Positions 65-30,160 of a stretch of DNA of 33,196 nt are shown here, in pieces. Under the pieces are notes generated by a model. That model was given only the letters and a program-made list of their open reading frames with translations. It searched no databases and had not been told where the DNA came from. The stretch covers positions 1 through 33,196 of the forward strand of contig ONHI01000030.1 of assembly GCA_900317565.1 (NCBI GenBank), written 5' to 3'. The translations under genes were made by a program, and so were the position numbers. This DNA is from an uncultured Eubacteriales bacterium (GTDB lineage: Bacteria > Bacillota > Clostridia > Christensenellales > Aristaeellaceae). Positions within the stretch are counted from its first letter, which is position 1. Each line of letters begins with the position of its first letter.

Positions 65-376
65 TTAACCTTTTGGGCGGTTCAGGATGTTTATTACGCA
101 CTCCGCCGAGAGCTCCTCGAGCTCCATTGAATTTTCCGCGTCGCGCATATTTTCAAGGTAATGCGCGTCGGAATTCGTCACGATGTTCAGTGTGTCGAGA
201 ATCGGATGAAGCTTCCGAAGTCCTTCGAGCTTTGTTTTGTCGGCAAGCTCCGCGGTTGTAAAGCCGCAGTACTCGTCAATCTCACCGAGCACGGAAAGGA
301 TTGACAGGCTGTCGCGGTCGATGTGCGCAGGGTAGCAAATTCCGCCGAAGTCCGCGACGATTTTGTGGGCGTTCAT
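65..376 (-). CDS. PHP-domain protein, C-terminal fragment (N-terminus missing)
   Basis: The 103 residues match the C-terminal part of PHP-domain metal-dependent phosphoesterase-like proteins. They carry a GGICYPAHIDR stretch near residue 11 and a TNSDAHYLENM stretch near residue 67; these histidines and aspartates are the metal ligands of the last two PHP motifs. Full-length family members are normally over 200 residues and start with an HxH motif, which is absent. The first ATG at 374–376 is therefore unlikely to be the true start, and the reading frame continues a little further upstream before the sequence turns into spoIIIAH on the other strand. The base composition is visibly less GC-rich than that of the neighbouring operon. 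The gene appears cut at about 376–390. Substrate unknown. Confidence 0.6.
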   Translation of the reverse strand: MNAHKIVADFGGICYPAHIDRDSLSILSVLGEIDEYCGFTTAELADKTKLEGLRKLHPILDTLNIVTNSDAHYLENMRDAENSMELEELSAECVINILNRPKG

Positions 377-26115: not shown

Positions 26116-26910
26116 TCAGGACAGCAGTATCCTGTCGTTGGCGAAGGCCTCGCCGCTGGCCCTGGCGAAGGCATCCATGAGCATCTCCACGGTGAGGTGC
26201 TTTTTTTCTTTTCTTGCGATGTCGAGGATCACGCAGCCCTCGTTCATCATGACCAGCCGGTTGCCGTAGCGTATGGCGTCGCGCATGTTGTGGGTGACCA
26301 TCAGCGTCATGAGGTGGTTCTCGGTCACGATCTGCTCCGAGAGCTCCAGCACCTTGGCCGCGGTGCGGGGGTCCAGCGCGGCGGTGTGCTCGTCCAGCAG
26401 CAGCAGCTTCGGCTTCTTCAGCGTCGCCATCAGCAGCGTCAGCGCCTGGCGCTGGCCGCCGGAGAGCAGGCCCACCTTTGTCGTCATGCGGTCCTCCAGA
26501 CCCAGACCCAGCTTCGCCAGCTTTTCCCGGTAGGCATCCCGCTCCTGGCGGGTGATGCCGACCTTCAGCGTGCGCTTCTGGCCGCGCCGGGCGGCGAGGG
26601 CCAGGTTTTCCTCAATCTGCATCGTGGCGGCGGTGCCGGTCATGGGGTCCTGGAATACGCGCCCCAGCAGCCCGGCCCGGCGGTACTCCGGCAGGTGGGT
26701 GATCTCATAGCCGTCGATGGCGATGTTGCCGCCGTCGATGGGCCACACGCCCGCGATGGCGTTCAGCATGGTGCTCTTGCCCGCGCCGTTGCCGCCGATG
26801 ACGGTCACGAAATCGCCGTCCGCCAGCTTCAGGTTCAGGCCGTTCAGCGCGATCTTCTCGTTGACCGTCCTCGGGTTGAAGGTCTTTCTCACATTCACCA
26901 GCTCAAGCAT
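26116..26910 (-). CDS. ABC transporter ATP-binding protein (amino acid-type importer)
   Basis: This 264-residue ATPase has Walker A GGNGAGKST at 39–47, a Q-loop VFQDPM, signature LSGGQRQ at 149–155, Walker B LLLLDEHT at 169–176 and the switch His in VTHNMRD. TMQIEENLALAARRG and MLMDAFARASGE are typical of the ATPase in the TrpXYZ-like systems. It powers the permease encoded upstream. Its start overlaps the permease end by 8 bp, so the two are translationally coupled. Confidence 0.92.
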   Translation of the reverse strand: MLELVNVRKTFNPRTVNEKIALNGLNLKLADGDFVTVIGGNGAGKSTMLNAIAGVWPIDGGNIAIDGYEITHLPEYRRAGLLGRVFQDPMTGTAATMQIEENLALAARRGQKRTLKVGITRQERDAYREKLAKLGLGLEDRMTTKVGLLSGGQRQALTLLMATLKKPKLLLLDEHTAALDPRTAAKVLELSEQIVTENHLMTLMVTHNMRDAIRYGNRLVMMNEGCVILDIARKEKKHLTVEMLMDAFARASGEAFANDRILLS

Positions 26911-27829
26911 GGCTCCCGCCTCCCTTCGCGCCGCGCATCGCCGCGATATTCGCCCGCCAGTAGGGCACGGCCAGGAACACGGCCACGATCAGCGCGCTAA
27001 GCAGCTTCAGCAGGTTCGTGTTCAGCCCCAGCCACAGCACCACCTGTATGACGATGTAATACAGCACCGCGCCGATGGCCACGCCGGTCAGCTTCAGCGC
27101 GAAGTTGCGGAACAGCTTGCCGAAGAGCACGTCGCTGATGATCACGGCGGCCAGGCCGATCACGATGGCCCCGCGGCCCATGTTCACGTCCACGAAGCCC
27201 TGGTAGTGGGAGAGCATCGCCGAGGACAGCGCGACGATGCCGTTGGAGATCATGAGGCCAAGTATCTTGCACACATTGGTGTTGATGCCCTGGGCGCGGC
27301 TCATGGCGGCGTTCGCGCCGGTGGCCCGCAGGGAGCTGCCCAGCTCCGTGCCGAAGAACCAGTACAGCACCGCGATCACCAGCGCCAGCACGATCAACGC
27401 CGTGAAGATCGGGTTGGAAAGGCTCAGCTCCCGCACGTTCCGCTGGCTGACGATCAGCGCGTACTTGGTGACGTTGATGCCCTGGTTGGCCTTGAAGCCC
27501 ATGATCGCCAGGTTGACGGAGTACAGCGACAGCTGGGTCAGTATGCCCGAGAGTATCGGCGGGATGCCCATGGCCGTGTGGAAGATGCCCGTCAGCAGTC
27601 CGGCCAGCATGCCCGCCAGCACCGCGCACAGCAGCGCAAGCCAGACGTTCACGCCGTTCAGCATCAGCATCACGCACACCGCGCCGCCGGTGGCCATGCT
27701 GCCGTCCACGGTCAGGTCCGCCAGGTCCAGCACCTTGTAGGTGATGTAGACGCCGATGGCCATGATGCCCCAGATCAGGCCCTGGGCCACCGCACCGGGC
27801 AGGGCGTTGAGGAGAGAGGTAATGTTCAA
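26903..27829 (-). CDS. ABC transporter permease (BPD_transp_2 family)
   Basis: This 308-residue protein has eight to nine hydrophobic helices. The family marker LRATGANAAMSRAQGI near residues 178–193 is the cytoplasmic coupling loop of the LivH/branched-chain-type permeases. GIYITYKVLDLADLTVDG-like sequence at about 26–43 is typical of the permeases that pair with TrpX-like binding proteins. A single permease gene implies a homodimer. AGGAACGACC lies upstream of the ATG at 27829, a fairly weak ribosome site. A palindrome separates it from the binding-protein gene. Confidence 0.9.
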   Translation of the reverse strand: MNITSLLNALPGAVAQGLIWGIMAIGVYITYKVLDLADLTVDGSMATGGAVCVMLMLNGVNVWLALLCAVLAGMLAGLLTGIFHTAMGIPPILSGILTQLSLYSVNLAIMGFKANQGINVTKYALIVSQRNVRELSLSNPIFTALIVLALVIAVLYWFFGTELGSSLRATGANAAMSRAQGINTNVCKILGLMISNGIVALSSAMLSHYQGFVDVNMGRGAIVIGLAAVIISDVLFGKLFRNFALKLTGVAIGAVLYYIVIQVVLWLGLNTNLLKLLSALIVAVFLAVPYWRANIAAMRGAKGGGSHA

Positions 27830-27908: not shown

Positions 27909-28853
27909 TTATTCGGCGATCGCCACGTAGTCCTCCGGGATCTCGACGCCCAGCAGCTCGCACAGCTCGGCGTTGTACTCCTTGACCAGCTTGGGGGCCT
28001 TCTGGATGGGCATGACGGAGACGTCCGCGCCGTTCACCAGCACCTCGTAGGCCATCTCGCCGGTGGCGTAGCCCAGGTCATAGTAGCTGATGGTCAGGGT
28101 CGCCACGCCGCAGCCCTTGCAGATGCCCTCTTCGCCGGCGATGACCGGGGTGCCCGCGGGCTCCACCACGTTGCGGATGGCCTCGGTGCAGGAGGCGGCA
28201 GTGTTGTCGGTGGGGATGTAGAGCACGTCGCTGCCGTCGCAGGCGCTCTGGGCGACGGAGGCCACGTCGTTGCTGTCGGCGAAGGTGTAGTCGGAGCAGG
28301 TATAGCCCAGCGCCTCCAGATAGACGCGGATGGCGTCGGCCTGGAACTGGCTGTTTGGCTCGGCGGAGCAGTAGAGGATGCCCACCTTCACGGCGTCGGG
28401 GAACAGCTCGTTCAGCATCGCGGCCTGGTCCTCAAGGGTCGCCAGGTCGGAGGTGCCGGACACGTTGATGCCGGTGGCCTCGCCCATGTCTTCGATGTCA
28501 AGGGCGGTGGCGTAGTCCGTGACGGAGGTGCCCAGGATCGGGATATCGCCGGTGGCGGCCACGGCGGCCTGGAGCGCCGGGGTGGCGTTGGCCATGATCA
28601 GGTCCACGTTGTCGGAGACGAAGCCGTTCACGATGGTGGAACAGGTGTTGGAATCGCCGGAGGCGTTCTGCACGTCAAAGCTGACGGCCTCGCCCAGCTT
28701 TTCGGTCAGGGCGTCCTGGAAGCCCTGGGTGGCAGCGTCCAGCGCGGGGTGCTGCACCAGCTGGCACACGCCCACGGAGTACGTCTCTTCGGCGATTGCG
28801 GCCATGCCCAGGCAGAGCGTGACGGCGACGAGGATGGCAAGCATTTTCTTCAT
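27909..28853 (-). CDS. ABC transporter substrate-binding protein (TrpX-like, PF04392 type)
   Basis: This 314-residue exported protein has a signal peptide (MKKMLAILVAVTLCLGMAAIA, cleaved near residue 21). SVGVCQLVQHPALDAATQGFQDAL at about 27–50 is the hallmark start of the ABC_sub_bind family; GVATLTISYYDLGYATGEMAYEVL closes it. Some members bind tryptophan or tyrosine. The Cys at residue 15 lies in LCLG, not a good lipobox, so surface retention is unclear for a Gram-positive. ATG 28853 is supported by AGGAGG at 28863–28868. Its leader contains an apparent attenuator with a Phe-rich peptide, which points to phenylalanine or other aromatic substrates (inference). Confidence 0.9.
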   Translation of the reverse strand: MKKMLAILVAVTLCLGMAAIAEETYSVGVCQLVQHPALDAATQGFQDALTEKLGEAVSFDVQNASGDSNTCSTIVNGFVSDNVDLIMANATPALQAAVAATGDIPILGTSVTDYATALDIEDMGEATGINVSGTSDLATLEDQAAMLNELFPDAVKVGILYCSAEPNSQFQADAIRVYLEALGYTCSDYTFADSNDVASVAQSACDGSDVLYIPTDNTAASCTEAIRNVVEPAGTPVIAGEEGICKGCGVATLTISYYDLGYATGEMAYEVLVNGADVSVMPIQKAPKLVKEYNAELCELLGVEIPEDYVAIAE

Positions 28854-28885: not shown

Positions 28886-28916
28886 AAAAGCGGCCCTCCC
28901 ATCCGGGGAGAGCCGC
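28886..28916 (-). terminator. Attenuator terminator before the ABC importer
   Basis: On the minus strand, 28906–28916 pairs with 28890–28900 to give an 11-bp stem with one G-U pair and a 5-base loop; four U follow (28889–28886). It lies 20 bp upstream of the AGGAGG of the binding-protein gene, so it can only act as a conditional terminator. Eight bases at the leader-peptide stop codon (28947–28954) can pair with 28898–28905, the loop and first bases of the 3' arm, and so prevent it forming. Confidence 0.75.
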
Positions 28917-28945
28917 CTCGATGAACTTCACCTGTCGCGGTTTCC

Positions 28946-29101
28946 TCAGATGGGCGTCGGCATAAACACAAAGCTCCAAAAGCCAAAAAACAGCTGCGCG
29001 AAATAAAATCGCACAGCGTTGGAAATCGCGCGGAAAACGGGCATGACGGGGGCGTCATGGCGGCGGGAGACAGCCTGCGCGGAACGGATCGCGTGCATCA
29101 T
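28946..29101 (-). CDS. Phe/aromatic-rich leader peptide of the ABC importer
   Basis: A 51-codon open frame lies between the promoter and the attenuator. AGGTGG, 8 bases upstream of ATG 29101, can serve as its ribosome site. Residues 32–46 contain seven Phe, one Tyr and one Trp (FYFAQLFFGFWSFVF), like the pheST and pheA leader peptides of enterobacteria. The stop codon at 28946–28948 is part of the antiterminator sequence. Ribosomes stalled on the Phe codons would leave that sequence free; ribosomes that reach the stop would cover it. The first 30 residues are basic and otherwise featureless. A leader role is inferred; a small secreted or membrane peptide is the alternative. Confidence 0.65.
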   Translation of the reverse strand: MMHAIRSAQAVSRRHDAPVMPVFRAISNAVRFYFAQLFFGFWSFVFMPTPI

Positions 29102-29135
29102 GTCAAAACCCACCTTTCCCCTTTGTTTGCTACGC

Positions 29136-29163
29136 ATTATAGCACAAATCGGTGTAAAGTCAA
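29136..29163 (-). promoter_or_regulatory. Promoter of the ABC importer operon
   Basis: On the minus strand, -35 TTGACT (29158–29163), a 16-bp spacer and perfect -10 TATAAT (29136–29141). It is the closest to consensus in the window. Transcription would begin about 275 bases before the binding-protein start, leaving a long leader. ATTA-N6-TAAT (29170–29183) lies just upstream of the -35 and could be a LysR operator. Confidence 0.8.
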
Positions 29164-29291: not shown

Positions 29292-29918
29292 ATGATTCGG
29301 CAGATGCGGTATTACATTGCCGTCGTGGAGACGGGCAGCTTTTCCGAGGCCGCGGAGGCCTGCCACATCCCCCAATCGGCCATCAGCCAGCAGATCAGGG
29401 CGCTGGAGGACGAGCTGCAGGTCGAGTTGCTGGAGCGCAGGGGCAGGCGGTTTGCCGTCACGCCCGCGGGTCAGTGGTTCTATCAGCGTTCCAGGCGGCA
29501 CGTGGCGGAGATGGACTCCACCATCCGGGAGGTGCGCCGCATCGGCACGGGCGAGCATCAGCAGCTGCGCATCGGCGTGCTCACGGGCTTCAGCAGGAGG
29601 ATCGTGCAGAACGCCATCAGCGACTTCGTGGCGTCCCATCCCTGCGTGCAGACCTCCCTCGTCTCCGGGACCCACGAGGACATCTTCCAGAAGATCATGG
29701 CCGGGCAGCTGGACATGGTGATCAACGATCAGCGCCGGGCGCTGGCGGATCACTTCGTCAACGAGGAGCTGGGGGACCAGCCGCTCTACGCCATGCTGCG
29801 GCAGGACAGCCCCCAGGGCAGGCAGAATTCGGTGACGATGGACGGAGGGAGCAGCTCTGCATCGTCGTGTCCTCGCCGGAGCAGCGGGCCAACGAGGCCA
29901 CCTACTGGCGGGACGTGA
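29292..29918 (+). CDS. LysR-family regulator, N-terminal part (frameshifted)
   Basis: The frame begins with the LysR winged helix-turn-helix (MRYYIAVVETGSFSEAAEACHIPQSAISQQIRALEDELQVELLER-type, residues 5–50). The first half of the effector domain follows (LRIGVLTGFSRRIV, FQKIMAGQLDMVI). At about 29843 the LysR sequence leaves this frame, which then runs out-of-frame to 29918. GGGGAGG at 29278–29284 supports ATG 29292. It is divergent from the ABC importer operon, the classical place for a regulator of that operon, and its inducer may be the transported compound (inference). Confidence 0.85.
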   Translation: MIRQMRYYIAVVETGSFSEAAEACHIPQSAISQQIRALEDELQVELLERRGRRFAVTPAGQWFYQRSRRHVAEMDSTIREVRRIGTGEHQQLRIGVLTGFSRRIVQNAISDFVASHPCVQTSLVSGTHEDIFQKIMAGQLDMVINDQRRALADHFVNEELGDQPLYAMLRQDSPQGRQNSVTMDGGSSSASSCPRRSSGPTRPPTGGT

Positions 29919-30160
29919 TGACGGTGCAGGGCGACCTGCTGTTCGTGGACAGCGTGGAGGCCGCCTGCATGAACGCCGTGGCGGGCGTGGGCTGGCTGCC
30001 CTGCGACCACGATATGGAGGCCGGACCGGGCACAGCGCTGGTGCCGCTGATGCGCGGGGAAGCGCCCGTGACCCGCAAGATGTTCGCCTTCTGGCTGGAG
30101 GAGCGGGATTCCCCACTGCAATGGGAATTCTCCGCGATGCTCTCCCGGCATTTCAAATAA
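29843..30160 (+). CDS. LysR-family regulator, C-terminal part
   Basis: From about 29843 the second frame resumes the effector domain: RREQLCIVVSSPEQRANE, LLFVDSVEAACMNAVAGVGWLPCDHD, and the final TRKMFAFWLEERDSPL. It has no start of its own. Together the two parts give about 289 residues, the normal LysR length, so only one base (or 3n+1) seems to be missing. I read the gene as intact in nature with a single-base error, or as a recent pseudogene. Confidence 0.8.
   Translation, partial: RREQLCIVVSSPEQRANEATYWRDVMTVQGDLLFVDSVEAACMNAVAGVGWLPCDHDMEAGPGTALVPLMRGEAPVTRKMFAFWLEERDSPLQWEFSAMLSRHFK

Follow-up and report, generated by a model that had tools for sequence, protein, structure and literature searches.

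A predicted leader-peptide attenuator on an aromatic amino acid importer of Clostridia and its recurrence before other genes

Leader-peptide attenuators control pheA, pheST and trp in enterobacteria. In the accessible sections of published papers, hisS/hisZ genes of Firmicutes have his leader peptides in place of T-boxes (PMC2965389), the ilv attenuator peptide of Staphylococcus aureus is Leu-rich and backed by mutants (PMC5794164), and the uORFC-13-1 motif, known from 24 sequences of one genus and one gene, lies upstream of aroF in Acholeplasma (PMC8632094). Amino acid leader peptides in Firmicutes and a Phe candidate in Acholeplasma are, as far as these sections go, already known. Importers appear in such sources under another sensor, the T-box: a Trp T-box sits on trpXYZ in Streptococcus suis (PMC9382623), and T-box-controlled transporters have been described in Firmicutes (PMC2494555). 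Here we analyze a 33,196-nucleotide stretch of DNA (the window, in its whole length) in which an ABC importer operon is, very probably, under a ribosome-mediated transcription attenuator that would respond to the charging of tRNA-Phe, and of Tyr as well in some relatives. An earlier note on this DNA had called such control unusual for a transporter in this phylum, a statement that the Firmicutes leaders already reported in the accessible parts of PMC2965389 and PMC5794164 weaken.

Leader gene and hairpins upstream of the importer

The features of this locus lie on the minus strand unless stated otherwise. The promoter, TTGACT-16-TATAAT (29136..29163; -35 at 29163-29158, -10 TATAAT at 29141-29136), matches the consensus at 11 of 12 positions, with one such site found against a mean of 0.5 in shuffles. 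Downstream lies a leader peptide gene of 51 codons (28946..29101), preceded by AGGTGG and recurring in relatives, whose translation from 29101 to 28946 is MMHAIRSAQAVSRRHDAPVMPVFRAISNAVRFYFAQLFFGFWSFVFMPTPI, ending FYFAQLFFGFWSFVFMPTPI before the stop codon at 28948-28946. Its control codons, 32-46, include nine for aromatic residues (F32 Y33 F34 F38 F39 F41 W42 F44 F46), that is, seven Phe, one Tyr and one Trp. The 5′ strand of a predicted antiterminator, CCCATCTG (28947..28954), overlaps the stop codon, and its 3′ strand, CGGATGGG (28898..28905), falls in the loop and 3′ arm of an intrinsic terminator, GCGGCTCTCCC/GGGAGGGCCGC (28886..28916), composed of an 11-bp hairpin (28916-28890) and U4 (28889-28886) and supported by folding as well as covariation; a consensus terminator scan that demands 5 T in 8 does not list it. 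Promoter, leader with its AGGTGG and nine aromatics, terminator and the pairing of the two antiterminator strands were all located where the earlier note had placed them. Additional to that note is a hairpin inside the leader coding sequence, P1 (28993..29017), whose loop holds codons 32-33 and whose 3′ flank is a U-rich tract encoding Phe codons. The Shine-Dalgarno sequence and ATG (28853) of the binding-protein gene come after the terminator, and the operon encodes a TrpX-like substrate-binding protein (27909..28853; PF04392), an ABC permease (26903..27829; PF02653) and an ABC ATPase (26116..26910; PF00005). Divergent from it, on the plus strand, is a LysR-type regulator (29292-30160) with its DNA-binding half and C-terminal part in different frames; the frame change near 29850 is an assembly error or marks a pseudogene.

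The pairings were followed through 28 distinct window-type leaders, the window included, from which five duplicates had been removed and to which L080 was added by hand. The 8-bp antiterminator is paired in 96.8% of 221 cells, and sliding it by one column drops pairing to 57.4% and 39.8%. Four of its eight pairs change on both sides, U-A standing for C-G in two leaders and G-C for A-U in three, with further double changes in L080 (U-A for C-G) and L030 (A-U for G-C). Only 3 of 500 shuffles reach four both-sided pairs and none of 500 the covariation score; the number of further pair types, eight, is equalled by 129 of 500. When later finds, other genes included, extend the set to 45 leaders, 90.9% of cells are paired, six of eight pairs change on both sides (22 cells), and 0 of 500 shuffles reach the real values on all five measures. 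The comparison for compensatory changes that the earlier note had called for therefore bears the pairing out in both sets, with several double changes in each. The terminator hairpin covaries likewise (27 sequences), as does P1, with 84.8% of cells paired and seven of ten pairs changed on both sides (39 cells), its pair-count measure being matched by 27 of 500 shuffles. With three hairpin elements covarying and a leader model, R1, matching 64 of 308 genomes of the family, the predicted arrangement of leader, antiterminator and terminator exceeds what chance would give. R1 holds the P1 and terminator pairs only; the antiterminator pairs were left out, and the strand sequences were known to the model. 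Antiterminator complementarity lies above shuffles, as a set, both in 26 leaders found with R1 (Fisher 8e-12) and in the 13 of these on non-importer genes (Fisher 9e-8), P values that are overstated because the leaders are related and R1 knew the strand sequences; individually, 14 of the 26 stand above 0.05. One A-C mismatch interrupts the antiterminator of L226. Column-based counts were used in place of an automatic antiterminator search, which covers only the stretch around the stop codon and fails for leaders whose stop comes well after the strand.

In the window, the antiterminator overlaps the 3′ arm of the terminator by 3 nt, the nucleotides of the two being otherwise mostly different. 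The two should exclude each other on steric grounds, since, with both folded, a loop of 0-1 nt would have to span an 8-bp stem, and the locus would then possess the mutually exclusive antiterminator and intrinsic terminator that characterize leader-peptide attenuators. The minimum-energy fold retains the terminator even when only 6 nt of sequence are left upstream of CCCAUCUG; because the terminator is the stable fold, antitermination must be kinetic, the antiterminator forming before it. A classical 1:2 alternative is not evident, neither the window folds nor a reading of the alignments revealing a conserved upstream partner of CCCATCTG. P1 is self-contained and lies 5′ of most control codons; the window P1 together with TGTTTTTT scores as terminator-like, and 40 of 45 leaders have at least five U within the first 8 nt after P1, which is probably either a pause hairpin or a translation-coupled terminator hairpin.

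Two kinds of sensor on one importer gene

Between P1 and the antiterminator, the relatives carry a codon run that is Phe-rich, with Tyr and Trp, and that becomes eight Tyr codons (TAT/TAC) in L030 and YYYYYLYYY in L258; the N-terminal half of the peptide is variable. An open reading frame with Shine-Dalgarno sequence and start is kept in 27 of 28 importer leaders, the exception being L078 (the same place as L215), which is out of frame after its Shine-Dalgarno-linked start. These leaders thus appear translatable, with a run of codons for the amino acid that would be regulated. Conservation of the aromatic codons, on which the earlier note had staked its reading, holds on the importer in nearly all leaders; it does not hold in L057, where the run RFYLNGD offers few aromatics after P1.

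Of 150 family genomes searched for the binding protein, at least 107 gave a match, and the upstreams of 71 of the best-matching copies were read. Nineteen carry a window-type leader (the window and contig C64 included), five another aromatic leader (L025, L026, L035, L048, L052), 25 a T-box, and 22 have neither. The specifier of the 25 T-boxes is UUC (Phe) in 22, UAC (Tyr) in three (L054, L055, L069) and UGG (Trp) in none, as read mostly by script and, for L032, L041, L042, L051 and L071, by eye against neighbors. RF00230 matches every one of the 25 by E-value (15 of 20 loci, then 10 of 10), 11 of them above the gathering score; at that score, Rfam gave nothing on two T-box loci later matched by E-value, nor any match, RF00230 included, anywhere in the window. 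At L051, a cobalamin riboswitch match (RF00174, 56 bits; 176-374, minus strand) lies on the opposite strand beside the importer T-box. A quick tree of the 71 binding proteins, with SH-aLRT support only and with L025 and L032 labelled 'none', joins 16 leader-bearing rows in one set (support 97) and groups the remaining leader rows, L018, L020 and L030, with the Phe T-box rows L016, L017 and L019 at weaker support (83). Leader and Phe T-box thus appear to replace one another on the importer, and the Phe T-boxes that precede the same gene in sister genera are an independent pointer to charging of Phe-tRNA. The window's genome has 14 T-box model matches, four of them over the cutoff; one is on pheS, with a specifier read by eye as UUC, and both sensors therefore coexist in one genome. 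A second importer copy on contig C64 (G000:C64, L002) was not accepted as a sure paralog, since MAG RUG12424 has an identical leader (L074) and the window's genome is rated 5.25% contaminated, making a contaminant contig possible.

In a named collection of 80 loci, some of which overlap places from the genome searches, those nearest to the window come mostly from rumen and gut MAGs that carry the label Clostridiales or Clostridia. Among 62 more distant upstreams (L087-L152, full length), eight hold at least five aromatics in 10 codons, against a mean of 0.1 and a maximum of 2 in shuffles; L145 and L151 resemble membrane protein gene ends, L093 is doubtful, and the evidence for more distant aromatic leaders, on contigs labelled Lachnospiraceae, Oscillospiraceae or Sphaerochaeta, is no more than suggestive. 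Short aromatic-rich frames unrelated to the window leader precede the same importer, together with terminators, at L092, L095, L111, L113, L132 and L136, in other Clostridia and on one Sphaerochaeta-labelled contig, and are possibly independent leader attenuators. The automatic search around the stop returned no antiterminator above shuffles for L025, L026, L137 and L142.

What the importer carries can be narrowed from its binding protein, which scores 212.2 bits against the TrpX family NF041285 and does not reach its cutoff of 390. According to the accessible part of PMC6816091, three solved relatives bind Tyr (CD0873), Trp and Phe, and two positions govern side-chain choice: Gln (SP1069 Gln284) goes with Trp binding, and Glu binds the Tyr hydroxyl in CD0873. 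Mapped through alignment with the solved relatives (numbering counts Met), the window pocket has Glu241, as in CD0873, and Tyr257, where the Trp binder has Gln; Tyr stands at the site equivalent to SP1069 Gln284 in 70 of the 71 binding proteins, and L057 ends short there. Trp is, on this mapping, an unlikely substrate. Glu at the first position is shared by 21 of 22 UUC T-box orthologs (Asp in L070) and all three UAC orthologs, and therefore the pocket cannot separate Phe from Tyr.

The scaffold before other genes

The R1 matches in the family fall at 77 places, of which 68 were examined; the nine unopened ones comprise two strong (G265:C34 and G062:C22) and seven weak matches. Thirty places lie on the importer (29) or on a phenylacetate-CoA ligase gene (one), and five more, previously known, on the importer; the further 33 divide into 15 on the importer, 10 on phenylacetate-CoA ligase, two on DAHP synthase followed by trpE, one on a leuA-like gene, and five lacking the leader gene (L263, L265-L268). 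Of these five, L263 and L267 do precede an importer and retain the terminator. The leader gene was seen, once in broken form, in 55 of the 64 matched genomes. Under a stricter cutoff, a second model, R2, matched 59 of the 308 genomes and no place beyond those of R1. An order-wide search matched five of 396 genomes, four of them in the family, and a class-wide search one of 391, the window's own; these counts are lower bounds, with 7-8 candidates per genome scored in the wider searches and 10 in those of the family. The scaffold appears nearly confined, in the searches run, to one family of Clostridia.

Phenylacetate-CoA ligase follows the scaffold at 12 loci (L238, L241, L242, L244, L246-L248, L250, L254, L257, L225 and L282, the last from another family of the order). 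Downstream genes were named with NCBIfam on one example each: the PaaK example scores 554.6 bits against TIGR02155, below the cutoff of 646.3, the DAHP synthase example lies above its cutoff, and the leuA-like one, at 273.1 bits, far below; trpE was named by eye, on account of its resemblance to TrpE in the window's genome. Before the two DAHP-synthase-trpE operons (L253/L276, L264/L277) the run reads FFFGWWSW, with three Trp, and before the leuA-like gene (L255) FLLLGL, with four Leu, an apparent correspondence between codon run and regulated gene that is telling but thin (three loci, two alike). With Tyr, Trp or Leu runs occurring in relatives, the scaffold as such is not restricted to Phe, an adjustment to the otherwise supported reading of the earlier note. 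In the window's own genome, trpE carries a T-box match instead (L159), and a T-box match is also found there on a gene similar to the leuA-like one (L155).

For PHENYLACETATE-CoA ligase, control that opens when aromatics run short fits synthesis better than breakdown, and the scaffold before this gene suggests an anabolic role for the enzyme; the accessible part of PMC7356843 mentions Phe synthesis from phenylacetate in discussing rumen cultures. Such a route would also call for a 2-oxoacid oxidoreductase. At L280, the frame after the ligase gene resembles, by eye, an ACT-domain protein. We give even odds to a portable scaffold, all but restricted to one family of gut and rumen Clostridia, in which P1 would act as a translation-coupled terminator, the U-tract would supply the first control codons, the run would be rewritten (Phe, Tyr, Trp, Leu) for each gene, and paaK would be anabolic, leading to Phe from phenylacetate.

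Mechanism, alternatives and known systems

We posit that RNA polymerase would pause at the U-tract behind P1, awaiting the ribosome. When Phe-tRNA is plentiful, the ribosome would reach the stop codon and cover CCCAUCUG, the terminator would form, and the importer would be off. When Phe-tRNA is scarce, the ribosome would halt on the Phe/Tyr run 5′ of CCCAUCUG, and the free CCCAUCUG could pair with the emerging CGGAUGGG, delaying the terminator so that the importer is made; we infer importer induction on Phe limitation. The coordinates agree with this, as a ribosome at the stop should cover CCCAUCUG and one held on codons 32-44 should leave the strand free. Absent translation, the antiterminator would also be free, a gap that P1 would close by stopping or pausing polymerase unless a ribosome follows. 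The earlier note's reading of the locus as a leader-peptide attenuator draws its support from the conserved pairing, the aromatic runs, and the Phe T-boxes on the same gene.

Other readings of the same elements have to be weighed against control by Phe-tRNA charging. That the window's own copy senses Tyr or Trp is unlikely: its run does hold one Tyr and one Trp, its pocket Glu is that of CD0873, and orthologs include Tyr-rich leaders and UAC T-boxes, but Phe accounts for seven of nine aromatic codons, UUC for 22 of 25 ortholog T-boxes, and a Glu found in nearly every UUC T-box importer does not discriminate. Ligand-sensing arrest peptides of the TnaC or Erm type stall the ribosome through nascent chain and effector, and residues such as A-V/A-R-F..A-L/Q-x-F, recurring among the leaders, could be taken for such a signal; their recurrence, however, comes from encoding the P1 stem: the stem covaries as RNA, and where it differs between leaders the residues differ with it. 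With the run swapped for Tyr, Trp or Leu codons in some leaders and the N-terminal half variable, an arrest peptide is highly improbable.

Slightly less probable still is that P1 and its U-tract are a plain first intrinsic terminator, the Phe codons being a by-product and the frame incidental. The terminator-like score of P1 and its U-rich tail would fit this idea, as would codon choice: in 14 leaders Phe is written TTT 68 times versus TTC 25, against 23 TTT and 63 TTC in the importer genes at these loci. This bias fits the U-tract, a slow codon, or both, and part of the Phe content of the leaders comes from selection for the U-tract behind P1. An incidental frame would not, however, be expected to keep its Shine-Dalgarno sequence and start in all but one of the importer leaders, nor to place its stop codon where the antiterminator overlaps or closely precedes it; and the Tyr8, GWWSW and LLLGL runs extend beyond the U-tract, the latter two in keeping with the regulated gene.

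With its relatives, the locus offers a clear example in which T-box and predicted leader peptide, as unrelated sensors of tRNA charging, interchange on one gene within one family, and the binding-protein tree lets the changes of sensor be counted. The importer, otherwise filed as TrpX, is predicted to carry Phe or Tyr rather than Trp. With paaK behind a starvation-type switch, the rumen route to Phe from phenylacetate becomes open to genetic tests, and the natural runs of Phe, Tyr, Trp and Leu codons that share one scaffold are ready-made specificity swaps. A literature search that took in few subscription journals and did not have paaK as a query found, in the accessible text of its sources, no Phe leader on this importer or on paaK and no multi-gene scaffold.

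Enterobacterial pheA/pheST and trp likewise have a short leader with control codons, a stop beside an antiterminator strand, a terminator, and the structural gene downstream; the window system differs in serving an importer, in Clostridia, and in its self-contained P1, which precedes most of the run, with no conserved upstream partner of CCCATCTG seen. As far as the accessible sections describe them, S. aureus ilv similarly joins amino acid control codons to a terminator in Firmicutes but on a biosynthetic operon and for another amino acid (PMC5794164), and uORFC-13-1 is likewise a candidate upstream frame whose Phe codons lie in a U-run ahead of a terminator, in the aromatic pathway, for which those sections describe no multi-gene use (PMC8632094). 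The S. suis trpXYZ T-box and the transporter T-boxes of Firmicutes also subject amino acid importers to tRNA charging, and one such importer shares the superfamily of the window importer, but these are, in the parts consulted, riboswitches without a leader peptide (PMC9382623, PMC2494555). Closest in its exchange of leader peptide and T-box is the his system of Firmicutes, which, in the available portion of PMC2965389, concerns His and hisS-family genes, whereas the window type is found on an aromatic importer and other operons, with covariation in the switch itself.
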